64,000 bases of DNA from Nitrospirota bacterium (lineage in GTDB: Bacteria > JACPQY01). The notes beneath the pieces are model-generated. The model made no database searches and was not told the DNA's origin. It was given only the letters and a program-made list of their open reading frames with translations. Shown one piece after another: positions 25,710 through 64,000 of the stretch. Each line of letters begins with the position of its first letter. Positions within the stretch are counted from its first letter, which is position 1. The stretch lies in assembly GCA_016190245.1 (NCBI GenBank), contig JACPQY010000031.1, forward strand, positions 1 to 64,000, written 5' to 3'. Made by a program: the position numbers and the translations under genes.

Positions 25710-26315
25710 ATGGTGCCCCTTCCGACCCAGACGGCTTACTGCCCCAGTTGCGGCGGAAACGTCCCCGTGATGACCATTCTCTGGCGGGGCACTGAAACTC
25801 CTCGTTGCGGCAACTGCGGCCTCGTGCTCGCCACCCAGCACGATGAATCCCAGGATGCCGGGCACCAGATGACCTGCGTCGTCTTTGCCGAAGATTCGCC
25901 CGGTGTCCGCCGCGTAATCGCCACCGTCCTCGAAGGCACGAAGATCACCCTCCAGGCCATCCCGTGCGAGAACGGGATGGAATTCATCGCGAAGATGACC
26001 GAGCTACTCAAAGAGAAGAAACACGTCGATCTGGCCATTCTGGACGTCCAGATGCCGATCCTGAGCGGCATTCAGGCCGCGCTTGCGATGCGGGAAATCG
26101 AAAAGAAATTCGTCAGCGCAAAACCCACGCCCATTCTCTTCTTCACCTCCAAGATGATCGACCCGAAGTTCAAGTCCATCCTGGACCAGTGCCGGCCCTC
26201 GGCCTACCTGAACAAGGGAACGGAGGCCTCTCCCCGCGAACTGGGTCGCCGAATCTATTCCGTCGTCCGGCGACTCGTCTCGGATATGTCTCTGCAAGAA
26301 GAGCTGAACCGCTAG
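25710..26315 (+). CDS. Response regulator with N-terminal zinc ribbon
   Basis: Residues 11-36 carry two Cys-x2-Cys knuckles (CPSC and CGNC), a zinc-ribbon arrangement. After a linker, residues 55-175 are a receiver domain with the acidic pair in FAEDSPGVRR, the phosphorylatable Asp in LAILDVQMPILSG (Asp112), the Thr in FFTSK (residue 146) and the Lys in YLNKG (169). All key residues are present. There is no DNA-binding output domain, so the signal may act through protein contacts. A TAATAT sequence stands 4 bp before the start codon. No histidine kinase is in the window. Confidence 0.75.
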   Translation: MVPLPTQTAYCPSCGGNVPVMTILWRGTETPRCGNCGLVLATQHDESQDAGHQMTCVVFAEDSPGVRRVIATVLEGTKITLQAIPCENGMEFIAKMTELLKEKKHVDLAILDVQMPILSGIQAALAMREIEKKFVSAKPTPILFFTSKMIDPKFKSILDQCRPSAYLNKGTEASPRELGRRIYSVVRRLVSDMSLQEELNR

Positions 26316-49239: not shown

Positions 49240-51234
49240 TCACCGCAACAACACGGCGCACCCCAAGCTCAGGATCGCCATGAGCTTGACGAGGACACCC
49301 ACCGAGGGAGCCGCGACCTCTCTCACAAAGGCTCCGGTCTCCTCACAGCCGACCAGATGGCTGAGAAGGAACCCAAGGATCAGAGCGGAGGCGATGGAAC
49401 CCATCAGCAAGGCGTTCAACATCTCTGAGTTGGCCAGTCCGAACGCGATCGGTGCTGCAACCGCAAGAAAAGCAGGGAATCTGACCCCTCTCAGCGCAGA
49501 ACTGGCCAACGAGTCGGCTCGTCCGTCATCAGCCCCGTTGGCTGGAACCTCCCCTTCGCGCGCGCCTTGGGGAGGCTGAACGGCGACCCTCCCCGGTGTC
49601 CCCTGTGCCAGCAAGCCTGCCCTCCTGAACAGGGAAGAAACTACCAGGATGGGCAGCAGCCCCCCAGCAACCAATGCCGCGAGGCTGCCTGGGCGGGAGG
49701 GATCGATCACCGTCACGGAGACGCTGCTACAGTACGCAAGGACCACCGAGACGGCCGACAGGACGGCTCCTGCCAAGGCGTTCCCACCGGCGTCCTCGCG
49801 CGTTCCACCAGCCGCGGCCACGGCCCGCCTCTTTCCCTCCTGGGGGAGGTCATCCCCGGCCCCGAGCGGCGCGGCGGTCTGGGCGAGCGTTCGAATCGCT
49901 GCCGCAGCGCTCTCGGCAAACCTCAACCCGCTCATGGAAAGAAATCCAATCGCGAGGACAGCGACACCGTACGGCCCCGCCAAACCATGCGCAAGGGCCA
50001 CGGCCGCGCAGACCACCGCCGCGGACCAGAACGTCGGTCGCACCGAGGCCGCTATGGGCCCGAACCGGGGCAGCTCCCACGGTCCCGCAGATCCGCCGTT
50101 CGCCACTCGAGGATATTGTGAGACCCGCGATGCATGCCTCGATGCGATCGTGCTGATCAGCCCCGCTGCCGCGAGGCCCAGGAGCATCGAGGCGAACACC
50201 CGGCCTGGTCCGAATTCGCCCCCTGGGCTCTCGTATTGAGCCGGCATCACCCACCGCGTGAGGGTGAATCCGAAAGCAACCATCAGAACCACCGACACTC
50301 CCCGCCCCGTCCCTGCCGCGGTGCGGGTCGCTTCAACCCGTCCGATCCCCGTGAGGAGGTGCCCCACCACGGAGGCCACAATGCCGGCGCCCGCCAGGAC
50401 GAGCGGCAGGAACACGAGCTCCGGCACGAAGCTCGTCCTCTCCGGGAGCTTCAGCCCGGCCGTGCCGATGAGCATGCAGGCCAAGACGGCGACGGCCTCT
50501 GACTGGAACAGGTCGGCCCCCGCGGCCAGCGTGTTCATGACCCCGCGCGCGACTCGTTCCGAAAGGTCAGCGGCACCCATGGTCAGGGCATCCCGCGCCG
50601 CCACTTCCTCCCCGTGCGGCCATTGGGCTCGCGCGGAAAGGCCGTGCGCCCAAAGTCCGCCGCCCAGACAGACCAAGAACGCCGCGCAGGAGGACCCCAG
50701 ACCGAACCCCACGAGAACCTCAGCGATCCTGCCCAATTCGGGCTGCCCGCCCACCCTGAAAACCATCACGCACAAGCCGAACAAGACACTCAGACCGAGC
50801 AAGGCCATCCCCCCCCAGGTCATGCCGGCAACTCCGCCTCCGATCCACGCCGTTCTCGCGGCCAGGGAAACGTCGCCCCCGGAGGCAGCGCCCCGCCCCA
50901 GCGCACCCACCGCCGCCCTCGCTCCCAACCGTTCCGCCAGAGCCGAGCCGGCGACTCCCACCGCAAAAGCGAAGGCCATGAGGGGATGGCCGACACCCCC
51001 CCCCCGGCTGGAGAGAACGGCCCCCAACAGCACACCCCCCCCCACAAGCCCGACCAGCGCCAGAATCAGTTGCGCACGGCGGAGCCAGACCGACACGGCC
51101 GCGCGACCCGCTGCGGAATGCCCCCCAACCGACGCGCGATCGCGTCCGGGCAGCTCCAAGACAAGCAGCAGGACAAGGGCGTAGCCGAGGGCGAAGACCC
51201 CCGAGGCCGCCGTGAGCCAAGCATACCCCACCAT
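49240..51234 (-). CDS. Degenerate membrane pyrophosphatase (HppA-like) without catalytic residues
   Basis: A 664-residue protein with about 16 hydrophobic segments that can be aligned by eye end to end with membrane-bound pyrophosphatases. The fold positions match, but the ligands do not: the family block [23 protein letters not shown] is LSERVARGVMNTLAAGADLFQSE here, the K/D-rich GADLVGKVE segment is gone, the GPxxDNAGG block is AAIRTLAQT, and the ANAGGAWDNAKK and GDTVGDPFKDT blocks near the C-terminus are missing. GNTTxA is replaced by GGTREDA. It should not bind or hydrolyse pyrophosphate, yet the frame is intact. It directly follows hppA (101 bp), suggesting a partner or regulator role. 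Confidence 0.75.
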   Translation of the reverse strand: MVGYAWLTAASGVFALGYALVLLLVLELPGRDRASVGGHSAAGRAAVSVWLRRAQLILALVGLVGGGVLLGAVLSSRGGGVGHPLMAFAFAVGVAGSALAERLGARAAVGALGRGAASGGDVSLAARTAWIGGGVAGMTWGGMALLGLSVLFGLCVMVFRVGGQPELGRIAEVLVGFGLGSSCAAFLVCLGGGLWAHGLSARAQWPHGEEVAARDALTMGAADLSERVARGVMNTLAAGADLFQSEAVAVLACMLIGTAGLKLPERTSFVPELVFLPLVLAGAGIVASVVGHLLTGIGRVEATRTAAGTGRGVSVVLMVAFGFTLTRWVMPAQYESPGGEFGPGRVFASMLLGLAAAGLISTIASRHASRVSQYPRVANGGSAGPWELPRFGPIAASVRPTFWSAAVVCAAVALAHGLAGPYGVAVLAIGFLSMSGLRFAESAAAAIRTLAQTAAPLGAGDDLPQEGKRRAVAAAGGTREDAGGNALAGAVLSAVSVVLAYCSSVSVTVIDPSRPGSLAALVAGGLLPILVVSSLFRRAGLLAQGTPGRVAVQPPQGAREGEVPANGADDGRADSLASSALRGVRFPAFLAVAAPIAFGLANSEMLNALLMGSIASALILGFLLSHLVGCEETGAFVREVAAPSVGVLVKLMAILSLGCAVLLR

Positions 51235-51335: not shown

Positions 51336-53777
51336 TCAGCCGCGCGTCCCTCTGTCCTCGGGAATCCGCATCCCGTAGAAGGACCGGTACACGAAGAAAA
51401 GAGCCACGAGGAAGAAACCGACCGCAATCGCCGTCTTGAGCCCGCCGGAGGGCATGGTGACGGCGATCTCGACGGCGAGAAGACCGAAGAGCGTCGTGAA
51501 CTTAATCACGGGGTTCAGCGCCACGGACGACGTGTCCTTGAACGGATCGCCCACCGTATCGCCCACCACCGTGGCCTCGTGCAACGGCGTGTTCTTCTGC
51601 CTCAAATCCACTTCCACAACTTTCTTCGCGTTGTCCCACGCCCCGCCGGCGTTCGCCATGAAGATCGCCTGGAACAGGCCGAAGAAAGCGAGCGCCACGA
51701 GGTAGCCAATGAAGAAATAGGGGTTGAAGAACGCGAGCGCGAGAGCGAGGCAGAAAATCACAATGAAGATGTTGATCATCCCCTTCTGCGCATAGATCGT
51801 GCAGATCTCGACGACCCGCTTGCTGTCCTTGATCGAGGCCGTGCTCGCGCCCTCCAGCTTGATGTTCTCCTTGATGTACACCACCGCGCGGTAGGCCCCC
51901 GTGACGACGGCCTGCATGGACGCACCCGTGAACCAGTAGACAACCGCACCGCCCATGATCAAGCCGAGGATAACCTCCCCTTGGACCAGACTGAGCCTCG
52001 CCACGACGTCGCCGAACAGGTGCTCCAGCAGCAGGATGATGCCGAAGACCATCGTGGTTGCGCCCACAACGGCCGTCCCGATCAAGACCGGCTTCGCGGT
52101 CGCCTTGAACGTGTTGCCGGCGCCGTCCCCTTCCTCGAGATACTCCTTGGACCTCTCGAAGTTAACTTCGACCCCGAACTCCTTCTTCACCTCCTGGGCC
52201 ACGTTGGGCAGCTTCTCGATCAGCGAGAGCTCGTAGACCGACTGGGCGTTATCCGTGACCGGGCCGAAGCTGTCCACGGCGATCGTCACGGGCCCCATCC
52301 CGAGGAACCCGAACGCCACGAGGCCGAACGCAAAGATCGGCGCGGCGAAGCCGTATTCGGCCGGCATGAGCTCGACGAGGGCGGGATGCTGTGAGGCCGT
52401 GTAGGCGATGAACATGAGCAGGAGGATCACGAGCCCCTCCCAGAAGGCCGAGAAATTCCCGGCCACGAAGCCCGAGAGGATGTTGAGAGAGGCGCCGCCC
52501 TGGCGCGCGGACGTGACGACCTCACGCACGTGTCGCGAGTTGGTGCTCGTGAAGATCTTCGTGAACTCGGGGATCAGGGCACCCGCCGCGGTGCCGCAAC
52601 TGATGATGACCGCCAGCACCCACCACAGGGGTCCGAAGCCGGAAATGAGAAGGTAGCTCGCCACGAACGTGACGCCGATGGAAATCGCCGACGTGAGCCA
52701 GACAAGTCTCGTGAGCGGCGTCTCGAAGTTGATCTTCGTCTTCCCCCGCGCCCACTGCCGGGTCGCTGCGGAGTTGATGAAGTAGGAAACGAGCGACGTC
52801 AGGATCATGAGGATCCTCATCACGAAGATCCAAATGATGAGCGCGCCGCACATCTCGGGCTTGGCAGCGAGGGCCAGCGCCAGGAAGGCGATCAGCGCCA
52901 CGCCCGTCACACCGTAGGTCTCGAAACCGTCGGCCGTCGGCCCCACGCTGTCGCCCGCGTTGTCCCCCGTGCAATCCGCGATCACGCCGGGGTTCTTGGG
53001 ATCGTCCTCCGGCAGGTGAAAGACGATCTTCATGAGGTCGGAGCCGATGTCGGCGATCTTCGTGAAGATCCCGCCGCAGATCCTGAGCACGCTTGCGCCC
53101 AGCGACTCACCGATTGCGAATCCGATGAAGCACGGCCCCGCCAGGTCTTGCGGCAGGAATGTCAGGATGCAGATCATGAAGAACAGCTCCACGCTGACCA
53201 AGAGCAGCCCCACACTCATCCCGGAACGAAGGGGAATGGCGAGGATATCGAGAGGGTTCTTATAGAGGGAGGCAAACGCCGTTCGCGAATTGGCCACGGT
53301 GTTGATCCGGATACCGAACCACGCCACGCCGTAGGAACCGAGGATGCCCAGAATCGAACAGGCGAGGATCACGAGAACGTTGTGAAGCGACGCGCCCTGA
53401 AGGCCGGCAAAGTAGTACGTCATGCAAACCGCGATCAAGGCCCAGAGGCCGGCGAGGAACTTCCCCTGCTGTGTGAGATAGGTCTTGCAGGTCTCCCAGA
53501 TTGTGTTCGAGACCTCCTGCATGGCCGGGTGGACCGGGAGGGCCTTCGTCTGAGAGTACTGGATGATCCCGAATACCGCGCCGATCACGCAGATCGCAAG
53601 CCCCGCGTACATCAGGCCGAGGCCGGAGACGTACCAACCGAACATCTCGAACGTCACCGTGTCCAGCCTCGGGAGGTGAATATCCGCCTCTCCTGCGAGC
53701 ACCGGTGAGGCGAAAACCGCGGGGACTAGCCCGCCCGCGATCAGTGATCCGATCCTGCGTAGGCTTGCTTTGAGCAT
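51336..53777 (-). CDS. hppA: H+-translocating membrane pyrophosphatase
   Basis: Uses pyrophosphate hydrolysis to pump protons. The likely start is the ATG at 53777 (MLKASLRRIGSLIAGGLVPAVFA), an N-terminal signal-like helix. Catalytic blocks are complete: TKIADIGSDLMKI, DDPKNPGVIADCTGDNAGDSVGPTADGFETYGV, GPVTDNAQSVYELS, MANAGGAWDNAKK and GDTVGDPFKDTSSVALN. The GNTFKA motif has Lys where K+-dependent enzymes have Ala, which in the family goes with K+ independence. It is about 813 residues. Two tandem hairpins lie in its leader. Confidence 0.95.
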   Translation of the reverse strand: MLKASLRRIGSLIAGGLVPAVFASPVLAGEADIHLPRLDTVTFEMFGWYVSGLGLMYAGLAICVIGAVFGIIQYSQTKALPVHPAMQEVSNTIWETCKTYLTQQGKFLAGLWALIAVCMTYYFAGLQGASLHNVLVILACSILGILGSYGVAWFGIRINTVANSRTAFASLYKNPLDILAIPLRSGMSVGLLLVSVELFFMICILTFLPQDLAGPCFIGFAIGESLGASVLRICGGIFTKIADIGSDLMKIVFHLPEDDPKNPGVIADCTGDNAGDSVGPTADGFETYGVTGVALIAFLALALAAKPEMCGALIIWIFVMRILMILTSLVSYFINSAATRQWARGKTKINFETPLTRLVWLTSAISIGVTFVASYLLISGFGPLWWVLAVIISCGTAAGALIPEFTKIFTSTNSRHVREVVTSARQGGASLNILSGFVAGNFSAFWEGLVILLLMFIAYTASQHPALVELMPAEYGFAAPIFAFGLVAFGFLGMGPVTIAVDSFGPVTDNAQSVYELSLIEKLPNVAQEVKKEFGVEVNFERSKEYLEEGDGAGNTFKATAKPVLIGTAVVGATTMVFGIILLLEHLFGDVVARLSLVQGEVILGLIMGGAVVYWFTGASMQAVVTGAYRAVVYIKENIKLEGASTASIKDSKRVVEICTIYAQKGMINIFIVIFCLALALAFFNPYFFIGYLVALAFFGLFQAIFMANAGGAWDNAKKVVEVDLRQKNTPLHEATVVGDTVGDPFKDTSSVALNPVIKFTTLFGLLAVEIAVTMPSGGLKTAIAVGFFLVALFFVYRSFYGMRIPEDRGTRG

Positions 53778-53792
53778 ATTCCTGACCCCCTT

Positions 53793-53829
53793 GTCCGCCT
53801 CTGGCGGACTTGCCCGCCGTGTGGCGGGC
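53793..53829. repeat. Twin hairpins in the hppA leader
   Basis: GTCCGCC-TCT-GGCGGAC (53793-53809) and GCCCGCC-GTGT-GGCGGGC (53812-53829) stand 16 bp before the hppA start. Both are perfect 7-bp stems. They belong to the same dispersed family as 28805-28839 but could act on translation because of their position. Confidence 0.6.
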
Positions 53830-53895
53830 TTGTGTGGCCCCTTCATAGTCTCCGCCCTTTTTCTTGTCAACCTCGAAAACGTCGCGGCGGACTCG

Positions 53896-54010
53896 CTACC
53901 AGGACATCCTTTCGACACCCGACACGTGGTCGAAGTGATCGTCCCGGCTGAGGATCGGGAGCCGATGCCGGCGTGCCGGGGCGAACGGTTGCACGGGGGC
54001 AGCCCGCCGG
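53896..54010 (-). pseudogene. C-terminal remnant of a PIN-domain toxin gene
   Basis: About 38 codons read QPFAPARRHRLPILSRDDHFDHVSG then VERMSW and a TAG at 53896. The RRHRLPILSRDDHFDHVxG phrase, with an Asp pair before a final Trp, is the C-terminal end of VapC-type PIN proteins. No N-terminal part or antitoxin is left. It lies between hppA and tldD on the minus strand. Confidence 0.5.
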
Positions 54011-58093: not shown

Positions 58094-58251
58094 CGGAATT
58101 CACGCTAGCCAAGATGCGGGGGCAAGTCAAAGTCCACCCCCGGCGGGAGAGGCACCCATGGGCGGCACTTCAGCTCGTGCGATGCGCCCGGGTTTGACCC
58201 CGGGCCGAAGCCTGTCATAATCGGGCCGCACGTGCCGGCGCATCCGCAATC

Positions 58252-60120
58252 ATGACCGAGCAAGCCAACACCCAGGGAGCCGTTCTTCTCGTCGAAGAAG
58301 GGGGCCCGATGTGGACCAACATGCGGCGCGCCCTCCAAAAGGACGGCTTTTCCCTGCGCAGCGCGACCACGCTGACCGACGCCCTCGACAATCTGCGAAA
58401 AGAGGATTTCGACATCGTCATCACCGGCCTCAGTTTCCGCGACCGCTCCGGGCTGGACGTCCTGCGGCAGATCAAAGAGGCCGCGCCCCTCTCCGAATTG
58501 ATCGTCCTCACCGATTCCCCCTCGCCGGATCCAAAGTGGGAGGCCCTGAAGCTGGGGGCCTACGACTACCTGACCACGCCGATCGAGGAATTCCAGATAC
58601 GCGATGTGGCGCGCAAGGCGCTCATGCACCGCAACCTGCGAGTCAATTTCCGGGAGCCCCCCCCCCCGAATGCGGCCGGCCCCTCGACGCCGGCGGAGAC
58701 CGACCGGCCATCCCCGAGGGGGAGTGCGGGGCGGCCGTCCCCGGCGCAGCCCGCACCGTTCAGTTTCGACCGGGAAGACAGGAAGCTCACCTTCTGGTGG
58801 AAAGAGAATGAGGACTTGACACCCGCCCCGACGGCAGGACGAGGTCCCAGCCTGTCCGAGCCCGCCCCCGAGCCTCCACCGGCGCCTCCCCGGCAACTCC
58901 AGCGCATGGATGAGAGCCCTGCGGAACCCGAACCCCCTCCCCCCCCCCGGCTCCGGGAGATCCGGCCGCCCGAAGTCCCCGTCTCGTCCCCGTCGGCCCC
59001 GCGGCAGGCGGAGACCGAGCCGACCCCACCCCCTCCTCCGGACATGGTCGAGCTCCAGCAGGAATTGGAAGACCGCCGCCATGAGACCGAGCGATTGCGC
59101 GAGCGCGTTCTGGAACTCGAACCGCTTCTCAATGAGCGGGACCATCTCAGGGCAGAGGTCGAATCCTTGCGGGCGGCAGCATTGCACTCGCAGCCAGTGG
59201 AGGGTATGTCTGCCCCGCCCCCCCCCGAGGCCGAAACGACCGAAGCGTATGCAGTGCCGCCCGTGCCGGCGCCTTCCCTCCGCCACCGCCTCTTCCCGCT
59301 CGTCGCAGGCATCTCTCTTCTCTCGATTCTTGGGGCCGCCTATTTCGGCGCGGTTGCCCACCAACGCGAGCGGGAAGCCGATGCCGCGGCCCGCCGTATC
59401 AAGGAATTGATGCAGACCACGGCAGCAGCTCCCACGCCGCCCGAATCGCCCCCGCCGGCGGCCGAGCCAACCTTGGAACCGGCCCCCGTGGAGCCTCCCG
59501 ATGTCCCCGCCACCACGCCCTCCCCCAGCGAGGCACCGGCCACGCCATGGGCCCAAAGACCTCAATCAAGCCCGCTCGGACTGCCCGAAGGACTCGTCAT
59601 CACCGTCAGGGCAAGCAACCTCCGGGAAGGGCCGGGCATCCACACTCCCCGCACCGCCCGCCTCCCCGCCGGAACCCTCTTGCAGAAACAATTGGAGGAG
59701 GATGAGTGGGCTCGCGTCCGATCGGAAGACGGCCGCGAGGGATACATGTGGACACCGAACCTCTCGGACAAGGCCGTGCTCGCCGCAGCCACGGGACCCG
59801 TCCCGCCCCAGGCGTTCGAACAGGGTGGTCACTACTACCCTTCGCTCAACGTGCTCATCCGCCCACTGCTCCATGTCACCCTCGAGGATTTCCGATTCCA
59901 GGCGGTGTTCATGCGCGGCTCGGAGCCTTGGGAATCGGTCGATCTGAGCCTCGGGGGACAGCCCGGCGCGGACGGGAGTTGGGCCCTCGATCTCCTGTGC
60001 CCCCGTGGCATCCCCAAGGAGCAGGCCGGACCGGATTTTCGCGTCGAGGTGCGCGCCTCTTCCGAGGGCGGCCGGCCCGAAACGCTCGCCTCGTTCCCCC
60101 TTTTCAGCGCGACTCCCTGA
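58252..60120 (+). CDS. Membrane protein with pseudo-receiver, coiled coil and SH3-like domain
   Basis: Residues 10-125 follow a receiver domain (VLLVEEGG, VITGLSFRDRSGLDVLRQI, LIVLTDS, GAYDYLTTP), but the phosphorylation Asp is Gly59 and the conserved Lys is Thr109, so phosphorylation is unlikely. Residues 130-260 are Pro/Glu-rich, 265-310 a coiled coil, 346-366 a transmembrane helix (FPLVAGISLLSILGAAYFGAV), then a second Pro-rich stretch. Residues 448-508 look like a bacterial SH3 domain (ASNLREGPGIHTPRTARLPAG, WARVRSEDGREGYMW), and about 110 C-terminal residues follow. The receiver-like part should be cytoplasmic and the SH3 part periplasmic. Role unknown. Confidence 0.7.
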   Translation: MTEQANTQGAVLLVEEGGPMWTNMRRALQKDGFSLRSATTLTDALDNLRKEDFDIVITGLSFRDRSGLDVLRQIKEAAPLSELIVLTDSPSPDPKWEALKLGAYDYLTTPIEEFQIRDVARKALMHRNLRVNFREPPPPNAAGPSTPAETDRPSPRGSAGRPSPAQPAPFSFDREDRKLTFWWKENEDLTPAPTAGRGPSLSEPAPEPPPAPPRQLQRMDESPAEPEPPPPPRLREIRPPEVPVSSPSAPRQAETEPTPPPPPDMVELQQELEDRRHETERLRERVLELEPLLNERDHLRAEVESLRAAALHSQPVEGMSAPPPPEAETTEAYAVPPVPAPSLRHRLFPLVAGISLLSILGAAYFGAVAHQREREADAAARRIKELMQTTAAAPTPPESPPPAAEPTLEPAPVEPPDVPATTPSPSEAPATPWAQRPQSSPLGLPEGLVITVRASNLREGPGIHTPRTARLPAGTLLQKQLEEDEWARVRSEDGREGYMWTPNLSDKAVLAAATGPVPPQAFEQGGHYYPSLNVLIRPLLHVTLEDFRFQAVFMRGSEPWESVDLSLGGQPGADGSWALDLLCPRGIPKEQAGPDFRVEVRASSEGGRPETLASFPLFSATP

Positions 60121-60390: not shown

Positions 60391-60723
60391 CTATGTCAGG
60401 ACGAGAAACGCCGCCACGGTGTCGTCGCCGAAGCGTCGGATGTCATCGAATCGACGTCTCAAGATTCGCTCAATGTTCTGCGTGGAACAGTTCCCTCGCT
60501 GAATCCAGATCACTTTGGGTGGGGCGCCGGTGAGAATGGACCTCGCGTAGAAGTCGGAGTCTTTGGACACGATCACGTAACGTTCTCTCCTGGCAAAATT
60601 CCAAACCTCTTCGTCCGTGGCCCGTTCCAGCCGAACATCCCTCACGTGTTTGGAATCCCGGAATGTGTCCCGTAGCTTCTCAACAAGTCCCGGTGACAGA
60701 TTCTGATCGAACAGGAGCTTCAG
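60391..60723 (-). CDS. DUF5615 PIN-like toxin
   Basis: The full family start LKLLFDQNLSPGLVEKLRD is reached only with a CTG at 60723 that overlaps the DUF433 stop as CTGA; the first ATG/GTG would drop the N-terminal Asp. The product is then 110 residues: first acidic site in LFDQNLS, EVWNFARRERYVIVSKDSDFYAR (second Asp pair) and GAPPKVIWIQRGNCSTQNIERIL. PIN-like nuclease half of a TA-type pair, with its partner directly upstream. Confidence 0.75.
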   Translation of the reverse strand: MKLLFDQNLSPGLVEKLRDTFRDSKHVRDVRLERATDEEVWNFARRERYVIVSKDSDFYARSILTGAPPKVIWIQRGNCSTQNIERILRRRFDDIRRFGDDTVAAFLVLT

Positions 60724-60965
60724 GCGGGTAGGCTTGTCAGCTTCCGTTCGCGGTCGGCGGCGAAAGCAAGCACGGCTCGGATGTCTTGCGCCGTCAGGTC
60801 CGGAAAGTCTTTGAGAATCTGATCTTCCGTCATGCCGGAGGCAAGGTAATCGAGGATGTCATAAACCGTGATCCGCAGGCCCCGTATGCAGGGCTTGCCC
60901 CCCCTCTTCTCAGGCTCGATGGTGATATATTTCCTGAAATCCACGGCTTCCGTTTTCCGTTTCAC
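60720..60965 (-). CDS. DUF433 antitoxin-like protein
   Basis: The 81 residues read FRKYITIEPEKRGGKPCIRGLRITVYDILDYLASGMTEDQILKDFPDLTAQDIRAVLAFAAD, the classical DUF433 core of beta hairpin and helix-turn-helix. It shares only the pattern, not close identity, with the copy at 36749. It overlaps its DUF5615 partner by 4 bp. The divergent hsdR gene starts 84 bp away. Confidence 0.8.
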   Translation of the reverse strand: MKRKTEAVDFRKYITIEPEKRGGKPCIRGLRITVYDILDYLASGMTEDQILKDFPDLTAQDIRAVLAFAADRERKLTSLPA

Positions 60966-61048: not shown

Positions 61049-63607
61049 ATGGGTAGTGGAGTCACATCAGTGAAAGAGGCCGCAGCCCGAATCAAGATCA
61101 ACCGGCTCCTTGAAGCCGCGGGCTGGCGATTCTTTCCGGAAGGCAGCGCACCGGCCAACATCCGTTTGGAGCCGAGTGTCACCGTCAACTCGACCGAACT
61201 GGATGCGCTCGGGAACGATTTCGAGAAAACCGGGAAGGGCTTCATCGACTTCCTCCTTCTCGACGCCAAGGGCTTCCCGCTCCTGGTTCTGGAAGCCAAA
61301 GCAGAGAGCAAGAGCCCGCTCGTCGGCAAGGAGCAGACACGCAAGTACGCCCGTTCCCAGAACTGTCGATTCGTCATCCTCTCAAATGGCAACCTCCACT
61401 ACTTCTGGGATTTAGAACGCGGCAACCCGTACATCATTACGTCATTCCCATCGCCTGACTCGGTCATCGGCTACCGCAAGGTAACGCCCAACCCGCAACG
61501 CCTGATCGATGAACTGGTCGGCGAGGACTACATCGTTCTGACGCAACGGCCGAATTACCAATCAGAGGCAGCCTGGGGCAATGAGGCGGAGCGCCCCGGC
61601 TACATCCAGGCGAACAAGCTGCGCTTTCTGCGTCCGTACCAACTCAAAGCGATCCACGCCCTGCAACGCGCGGTCCGAGAGGGGAAGGATCGCTTTCTGT
61701 TCGAGATGGCCACCGGCACCGGCAAGACCCTCACCGCGGGAGCCGTCATCAGGCTCTTCCTCCGATCTGGAAACGCCCACCGCGTGCTCTTTCTGGTGGA
61801 CCGCCTCGAACTGGAGGATCAGGCCGGCAAGAAGGCCGACTCCCCTCTGCTGCTGTTGGCCGCCGATTTCAAAACGGTGATCTACAAGGAGAACCGGGAC
61901 GACTGGCGCCGCGCGGAAATCGTCGTCACCACCGTCCAATCCCTTCTCTTCAACAACAAGTACCAGCGGCTGTTCTCCCCGACCGACTTCGACCTGGTCA
62001 TCTCGGACGAAGCACACCGGTCCATCGGCGGCAACGCCCGTGCGGTCTTCGATTATTTCATCGGCTACAAGCTGGGGCTCACCGCCACGCCGCGTGACTA
62101 CCTCAAGCGGTTCGATAAGAGCAATCCGTCCACCCGCGATCCGCGCGAAGCCGAACGCCGCCTACTGCTGGATACCTACCGCACCTTCGGTTGCAATAAC
62201 AGCCAGCCGACCTACCGATACTCGCTGCTGGATGGCGTAAAGGACGGTTATCTGATCAATCCCACGGTTGTGGATGCCCGCACCGAGGTCACCACTGAGC
62301 TGCTCTCTGAAGAGGGTTTCGTGGTCACATTCACCGATGACCAAGGCGATGATCAACAGGAAGCCTTCAAGCAGCGCGAGTTCGAAAAACGATTCTTCTC
62401 CGATGCCACGAACCAGCTCTTCTGCAAGACGTTCCTCGAAAATGCGCTGCGCGATCCCATTAGCGGCGAGATCGGCAAGTCGATCATCTTCGCCGTCAGC
62501 CAGAACCACGCTGCCAAGCTGGCGCAGATCCTCAATCAGATGGCCGACCGCATGTTTCCCGGCAAGTATCAGTCGGACTTCGCTGTCCAAGTCACTTCAC
62601 AGATTCCCGATGCCCAGCAGTTCACCATCAACTTCGCCAACAACAACCTGCTTGGCTCGGCCAACTTCCTGCCCGCTTACAAGACCAGTAAGGCGCGGGT
62701 GTGTGTGACCGTTGGCATGATGACCACCGGGTATGATTGCACGGATATCCTGAACCTCGGCCTCTTCCGTCCCATCTTCTCGCCGACGGATTTTATTCAG
62801 ATCAAAGGGCGTGGCACCCGCAAGCACAACTTCCTGGAGCAACTGTTCGACGACAATCTCAAGGACAGCGTCCGGAACCCCGACAAGACGGCATTCAAGC
62901 TCTTCGACTTCTTTGCGAACTGCGAATACTTCGAGGAGAAGTACAACTACGACGAGGTCATCGAGCTCCCCCCGCCCAAAGGAACTGGCGGCGGTGGAGG
63001 TGGAGGCCCCGTGGTTGTGGGCGGCACTTACGAGCACCTGGGCGCCGACATCCTTTCCGAAATCAGGGAAGAGCCCATTGGGCTTGAGGGTATGAAGATC
63101 GACCGCATGTTCTTCGAGAAATTCGAAGACACCGTGCGCAAGAACGACTTCATCGCCAAGGCCGTCGAGACCGGGCAGTGGGATCGCGTGATCGACTATG
63201 TAAACCGTGAAGTTTTCGACAAACCCGAGGAATACTACACCCTCGACAAACTGCGCAAAGCCGCCGTCGTAGACCGCCGTCTAACCCTGCGGGAGATCCT
63301 GGCAAAGATCTTCGGCCTGATTCCGCGCTTCAAGTCCAAGGACGAACTGCTCGAAGAGGAGTTCGCCAAATTCGTCGCCGATTACAAGCCGGACGAGGCC
63401 ACCGCCATCCCAGCCATCAAGACCTACTTCAAGGCCTACATCACCAGCGACCGGGTGCGCCACATCATCGAGAGCCGGCAATTCACGGAACTGGCTACCA
63501 ACCCCGTGTTTTCCACGCGCGATTTCAAGGCGGTGCCGAAGAAGTACCGCTCGCTCGTCCCGGAATACGTCAAGGACTACGTCTCGCTGAACCAGTTTGC
63601 AGCGTAG
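61049..63607 (+). CDS. hsdR: Type I restriction enzyme R subunit
   Basis: An N-terminal PD-(D/E)xK nuclease domain (FIDFLLLDAKGFPLLVLEAKAESKSP, with D and ExK) is followed by a superfamily 2 helicase: LRPYQLKAIHAL (Q-like), ATGTGKTLTAG (Walker A), DLVISDEAHRSIGG (DEAH), GLTATPRDYLK and TGYDCTDI, IKGRGTRKH (motif VI). The C-terminal helical domain has KYNYDEVIELPP and EDTVRKNDFIAKAVETG. It is 852 residues, at the short end for HsdR. ATG at 61049; GTG at 61070 is possible. The next gene is a four-helix-bundle protein, and hsdM/hsdS are expected beyond the window. Confidence 0.9.
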   Translation: MGSGVTSVKEAAARIKINRLLEAAGWRFFPEGSAPANIRLEPSVTVNSTELDALGNDFEKTGKGFIDFLLLDAKGFPLLVLEAKAESKSPLVGKEQTRKYARSQNCRFVILSNGNLHYFWDLERGNPYIITSFPSPDSVIGYRKVTPNPQRLIDELVGEDYIVLTQRPNYQSEAAWGNEAERPGYIQANKLRFLRPYQLKAIHALQRAVREGKDRFLFEMATGTGKTLTAGAVIRLFLRSGNAHRVLFLVDRLELEDQAGKKADSPLLLLAADFKTVIYKENRDDWRRAEIVVTTVQSLLFNNKYQRLFSPTDFDLVISDEAHRSIGGNARAVFDYFIGYKLGLTATPRDYLKRFDKSNPSTRDPREAERRLLLDTYRTFGCNNSQPTYRYSLLDGVKDGYLINPTVVDARTEVTTELLSEEGFVVTFTDDQGDDQQEAFKQREFEKRFFSDATNQLFCKTFLENALRDPISGEIGKSIIFAVSQNHAAKLAQILNQMADRMFPGKYQSDFAVQVTSQIPDAQQFTINFANNNLLGSANFLPAYKTSKARVCVTVGMMTTGYDCTDILNLGLFRPIFSPTDFIQIKGRGTRKHNFLEQLFDDNLKDSVRNPDKTAFKLFDFFANCEYFEEKYNYDEVIELPPPKGTGGGGGGGPVVVGGTYEHLGADILSEIREEPIGLEGMKIDRMFFEKFEDTVRKNDFIAKAVETGQWDRVIDYVNREVFDKPEEYYTLDKLRKAAVVDRRLTLREILAKIFGLIPRFKSKDELLEEEFAKFVADYKPDEATAIPAIKTYFKAYITSDRVRHIIESRQFTELATNPVFSTRDFKAVPKKYRSLVPEYVKDYVSLNQFAA

Positions 63608-63615
63608 AAGACGAG

Positions 63616-64000
63616 ATGGCGAAGATCAGACCCAGTGGAGGCTACCGCGACCTGCGCAGTTTTCAGATTGCGACCATTATCTACGACGCCACCTACTGGT
63701 TCTGCGAGCGCATCCTGGAACCGCGGTCTCGGATGAGCGACCAAATGGTGCAGGCGGCGCGCAGCGGACGGCAGAATATCGCCGAAGGCAGCCGCGCATC
63801 CGCCACCTCGTCCCAAACCGAACTCCGGCTGATGAACGTCGCCCGCTCCAGCCTGGAAGAACTCCTCCTGGACTACGAGGATTTTCTGCGGCACCGGCGG
63901 CTGCGAATATGGGCGCCGGATTCAGCGGAGGCTACGGCGGTGCGGAAGATTGGCCAACAGCATCCGACGGATCCGTCTGGTCTGACGGATGAGCAGCGCT
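63616..64000 (+). CDS. Four-helix-bundle protein (23S rRNA IVP-like), cut by window edge
   Basis: ATG at 63616, 8 bp after the hsdR stop. The sequence (YRDLRSFQIATIIYDATYWF, then RMSDQMVQAARSGRQNIAEGS and ELRLMNVARSSLEELLLDYED) matches the four-helix-bundle proteins named after 23S rRNA intervening-sequence proteins, with the hallmark QxxxAxxSxxxNIAEG. A variant of this family is often found between hsdR and hsdM of type I systems. The frame is still open at base 64,000. Confidence 0.8.
   Translation, partial: MAKIRPSGGYRDLRSFQIATIIYDATYWFCERILEPRSRMSDQMVQAARSGRQNIAEGSRASATSSQTELRLMNVARSSLEELLLDYEDFLRHRRLRIWAPDSAEATAVRKIGQQHPTDPSGLTDEQR

Follow-up and report, generated by a model that had tools for sequence, protein, structure and literature searches.

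The locus and its gene

The window, by which we mean the whole 64,000-nucleotide stretch of DNA that was analysed, carries on its forward strand an ORF (58252-60120) that encodes a protein of 622 aa; the coordinates and frame given by a first, sequence-only reading proved correct. The gene can be taken as real, because the frame is also open in the ortholog from a second genus and the substitutions between the two receiver domains lie for the most part in the third position of codons (38/19/70). An antisense ORF at 58105-59565 was ruled out as a true gene, as the ortholog lacks it. From the N- to the C-terminus, the protein consists of a receiver, a Pro-rich linker, a weak coiled coil, one membrane span, a bacterial SH3 (SH3b) domain and a beta-sandwich. 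The layout proposed by the sequence-only reading (receiver, linker, coiled coil, span and SH3b) was thus recovered, with Pfam profiles matching both the receiver and the SH3 parts above their curated cut-offs. The C-terminal beta-sandwich, a conserved FWWKE peptide and the presence of Glu as second acid had not been described in that reading. The features are the following:

58252..60120, +, whole gene, membrane-anchored pseudo-receiver protein (ORF and ortholog)
58282..58632, +, residues 11-127, pseudo-receiver domain with E15, E16, G59, T87, Y106 and T109 (PF00072 and alignment)
58294..58314, +, residues 15-21, EEGGPMW motif in place of the acidic-pair loop (7/7 identical in the ortholog)
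58513..58656, +, residues 88-135, beta4-alpha4 loop, alpha4-beta5-alpha5 output face and C-terminal helix extension
58657..59037, +, residues 136-262, Pro-rich linker, predicted cytoplasmic (31% Pro)
58783..58806, +, residues 178-185, conserved linker peptide KLTFWWKE (KFTFWWKE in the ortholog)
59038..59181, +, residues 263-310, probable short coiled coil (heptad score)
59290..59361, +, residues 347-370, single membrane span (Kyte-Doolittle 2.03)
59362..59571, +, residues 371-440, Pro/Ala-rich linker, predicted periplasmic (24% Pro, 20% Ala, 21% identical to the ortholog)
59602..59766, +, residues 451-505, bacterial SH3 domain, SH3_3/SH3_4 (PF08239)
59812..60111, +, residues ~521-620 (about 100 aa), C-terminal beta-sandwich (AlphaFold2 without alignment)

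Several other features of the window were recorded. A canonical proton pyrophosphatase (51336-53918, 602 bits) is directly followed downstream by a gene for a 664-aa protein (49240-51234, -) with a weak H_PPase match (129 bits). By eye, this protein misses the DDPKNPGVIADCTGDNAGD-type catalytic motif; BLASTP detects no resemblance between it and the canonical enzyme, the related genome does not encode it, and it is possibly a second pseudoenzyme. A DUF5615/DUF433 gene pair that looks toxin-antitoxin-type lies at 60391-60965 (-). The region 61049-63999 (+) encodes an HsdR-like helicase/restriction subunit and, after it, a 23S rRNA intervening-sequence (four-helix) protein.

A receiver without its catalytic residues

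The receiver profile PF00072 spans the whole domain (residues 11-118, E=1.2e-15, 58 bits against a cut-off of 30.2), which places it in the receiver superfamily, while NCBIfam returned only generic receiver matches far below cut-off. To assign individual residues, we aligned the domain with the 30 best receivers found in this genome. The phospho-Asp expected at the end of beta3 is Gly59 in both orthologs and Asp in 30/30 controls, and the conserved beta5 Lys is Thr109 in both orthologs and Lys in 30/30 controls, so that both hallmarks of a canonical phospho-receiver are missing, as the sequence-only reading had stated. That reading had also noted a preserved acidic pair; Glu15 and Glu16 are indeed present, yet the second acid is Glu, which occurs in none of the 30 canonical receivers (all Asp). 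The Thr87 and Tyr106 switch pair is kept in the same alignment. No other Asp occupies the site, and a misalignment displacing the Asp was ruled out, since the alignment is gap-free near the site and the 30 controls align cleanly. A sequencing error or pseudogene was likewise rejected as the cause of the lost Asp and Lys. The ortholog carries the same substitutions, which indicates that the altered site dates from before the divergence of the two genera and has been passed on in both.

Pseudo-receivers have been defined as profile-recognised receivers that lack catalytic residues, the phospho-Asp first of all (PMC12632262, PMC4395418). Two further marks of this group have been described (PMC12632262), and both were found: T+1 is acidic (Asp88 here and Glu in the ortholog), and at D+4 the Pro has given way to Arg63. 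By this definition the protein is a pseudo-receiver, or aspartate-less receiver, and it is predicted from its residues to be non-phosphorylatable. Among solved structures it comes closest to NtrC-family receivers (Aquifex NtrC1, 3.1e-13), and none of the 30 receivers sampled from its genome exceeds 34% identity. Structure prediction without alignment gave a receiver model of low confidence (pLDDT 50.8), which was set aside.

Another divergent receiver (39.5 bits) is encoded at 25710-26315 (+). By eye it keeps the Asp and Lys, and it belongs to a protein of 201 aa whose N-terminal part has a zinc-ribbon-like CxxC...CxxC stretch.

Linkers, membrane span and topology

Within the otherwise fast-changing Pro-rich linker, FWWKE (residues 181-185) is kept. 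As a motif common to other proteins it was discarded, given that the two genomes together hold one other such site, antisense to a transketolase ORF. The coiled coil announced by the sequence-only reading stood in part: a heptad signal is present, but it is weak (shuffle p 0.043 here and 0.019 in the ortholog). The single span was borne out, with one strong hydrophobic segment at 347-370, a next-best Kyte-Doolittle value of 0.8 and the corresponding span of the ortholog at 352-370.

The protein is predicted to have its N-terminus inside and its C-terminus outside. This orientation follows from the cytoplasmic nature of receivers together with the N-terminal position of this one, which has no signal peptide. 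Omp85 proteins are encoded in the genome, so the cell would be diderm and the SH3b end should be periplasmic. The earlier placement of the pseudo-receiver inside and the SH3b outside therefore agrees with our inferred orientation, “outside” being the periplasm.

The SH3b and C-terminal domains

The SH3b domain is recognised by SH3_3 (PF08239) at residues 456-504 (E=4.1e-7 in the whole protein and 1.5e-8 for the region alone; 30.5 bits against a cut-off of 27) and by SH3_4 (24.2 bits against 24.1), which also matches the ortholog (25.1 bits, 1.5e-5). At the level of profiles the SH3b call of the sequence-only reading holds; AlphaFold2 without alignment gave pLDDT <50 across residues 1-87 of the modelled fragment, which contain the SH3b. 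For the C-terminal domain, the same method produced a beta-sandwich of at least seven strands with pLDDT mostly 60-89. Its fold neighbours are Ig-like or generic beta-sandwiches (best Z 8.2), which are not diagnostic and name no function. No Pfam family was found for this domain, and a sample of 384 further genomes yielded no homolog.

Ortholog, conservation and distribution

The ortholog, from another genome of the phylum and a second genus, has 630 aa, is 42% identical, follows the same domain order and shares the Gly, the Thr and the EEGGPMW motif. Synteny is retained: in both genomes the gene stands in divergent orientation beside genes for a B-family polymerase, a TldD-like protein and a proton pyrophosphatase. 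These conserved neighbours give no functional hint, and among the adjacent genes there is no gene for a partner, kinase or regulator. The related genome has one more gene in between, immediately upstream of the ortholog and in its orientation (L013, 10576-11028, -), for a small membrane protein of 150 aa with several spans; it has no counterpart in the 158-bp intergenic gap of the window.

Conservation is highest in the receiver (56-83% identity versus 40-42% for the SH3b and C-terminal domains). Residues 88-135, which comprise the output face, are identical at 40/48 positions (83%) versus 44/78 (56%) for residues 10-87 (shuffle p 0.0015), a contrast drawn from a single pair, since only two sequences exist, from two genomes of a very sparsely sampled phylum. 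Elsewhere identity is 40% in the SH3b, 42% in the C-terminal domain and mostly 12-31% in the linkers. In this sequence pair, the conservation is suggestive, though not proof, that the output face and the FWWKE peptide bind something.

Two pattern scans over 84,980 GTDB species and one of viral contigs returned no relative other than plain receivers. A profile search of 386 genomes retrieved the two orthologs and, at a far lower score, the receiver of a sigma-54 regulator in which both Asp and Lys are intact. As judged from these searches, which detect close relatives only, the family looks restricted to this phylum, and REC-TM-SH3b proteins assembled independently from other origins may exist elsewhere. 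The sequence-only reading could name no family with this architecture, and this still holds. Pseudo-receivers account for ~6% of bacterial receivers (PMC12632262). As such they are common, and novelty is confined to the domain combination, which appears to be a new lineage-restricted combination of known parts and not a new kind of system.

Proposed function and alternative explanations

The function that we favour, with slightly better than even confidence, is that of a phosphorylation-independent inner-membrane adaptor, whose pseudo-receiver would hold a cytoplasmic partner while the SH3b and beta-sandwich would bind a periplasmic ligand. Lacking the phospho-Asp, the Lys and a normal second acid, the receiver would serve as a fixed binding module, with its alpha4-beta5-alpha5 face and helix extension, perhaps together with FWWKE in the flexible Pro-rich linker, holding the partner. 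The coiled coil probably dimerises the protein, the single span would cross the inner membrane, and the Pro/Ala-rich spacer would extend into the periplasm, where peptidoglycan or an envelope protein is the putative ligand of the two outer domains. The partner would be kept at, or released from, the site of this ligand. Support comes from the loss, in two genera, of catalytic residues that 30/30 receivers of the genome keep; from the acidic T+1 residue, the lost D+4 Pro and the 83% versus 56% identity that favours the output face; and from the kept FWWKE, the single span and SH3b of both orthologs and the presence of Omp85. The sequence-only reading had suggested that an inside signal could be coupled to the envelope by protein contact alone; the retained, highly conserved output face fits such contact, and the coupling itself stays putative. 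Only tentatively do we propose a transmembrane coupler, in which the permanently unphosphorylated receiver would sit on a canonical regulator or a polarity/division protein and relay envelope status by contact, as a lineage-specific device with FWWKE as second docking peptide.

The main rival, considered as such because NtrC-family receivers (Aquifex NtrC1) are nearest among solved structures, is a membrane trap: the pseudo-receiver would pair through alpha4-beta5-alpha5 with a canonical receiver, most likely NtrC-like, or block its kinase, and the periplasmic domains would set the extent of sequestration. Also in its favour are the best outside match, which is the receiver of a sigma-54 regulator, the face used in receiver dimers being the best-kept part and the retained Thr87/Tyr106 pair, and the BldM/WhiI heterodimers offer a precedent. 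However, no kinase or regulator gene is adjacent and identity to any of the 30 sampled receivers of the genome is at most 34%, and we regard this explanation as unlikely.

Two further explanations are less probable still. In one, the emptied pocket or the output face would bind a small molecule and alter the periplasmic end through the span. Pseudo-receivers are known to be regulated in three ways, one of them the direct binding of a ligand, with ShkA (c-di-GMP) and KaiA/CikA (quinones) as analogues, and the pocket loop carries the new invariant EEGGPMW; a long flexible linker, however, separates the receiver from the membrane, which makes conformational transmission across it unlikely and leaves a ligand sensor quite improbable. 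In the other, the SH3b and beta domains would work in the periplasm as parts of a structural envelope protein, with the receiver as a remnant of gene fusion, either passive or in decay. A dead receiver may be functionless, and the SH3b and C-terminal domain are conserved too (40-42%), but the stronger conservation of the receiver and its mostly third-position changes are the opposite of decay; this reading is already weakened, and we consider it very doubtful.

Comparison with known systems

The working mode of bacterial pseudo-receivers is given as largely unknown (PMC12632262). Most of those studied are soluble regulators. A membrane-anchored pseudo-receiver with a defined outer binding module, kept in two genera and best conserved in its output face, would be a clean case for asking whether a dead receiver can serve purely for docking and so join cytoplasm and envelope. 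Among aspartate-less receivers (ALRs), only three residues replace the Asp more often than Gly does (11%), while the second-acid position, acidic here, is so in only 29%; the effector classes named in the accessible parts of the two surveys (DNA-binding, ANTAR, GGDEF, HDOD, kinase/phosphatase and others) do not include SH3b (PMC4395418, PMC12632262). The archaeal MetOD3 response regulators are also membrane-anchored receiver proteins, although they come from methanogens and have another output domain (PMC5847659).

FrzS and AglZ of Myxococcus xanthus share with our protein an N-terminal receiver without phospho-Asp but with the switch Tyr and action, putative in our case, through the output face; their coiled coil has a probable, statistically weak counterpart here (PMC1974792). 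In FrzS, localisation needs the Tyr102 output face and not phosphorylation (PMC1974792). It differs in having Ala, instead of Gly, in place of the phospho-Asp and in that neither a span nor an SH3b has been described (PMC1974792). The Mgl polarity circuit to which FrzS belongs is probably absent here, as no Roadblock/MglB protein (PF03259) was found in either of the two genomes, which are 85% and 97% complete. For the layout, a Ser/Thr kinase of Synechocystis likewise has a cytoplasmic signalling domain, a membrane segment and then an SH3b, although that domain is a kinase and not a dead receiver, and Pro-rich linkers have not been described (PMC1262709). By analogy, a dead receiver acting by its output face has its best precedent in FrzS (PMC1974792), and the layout has its best in the Synechocystis kinase-TM-SH3b protein (PMC1262709).
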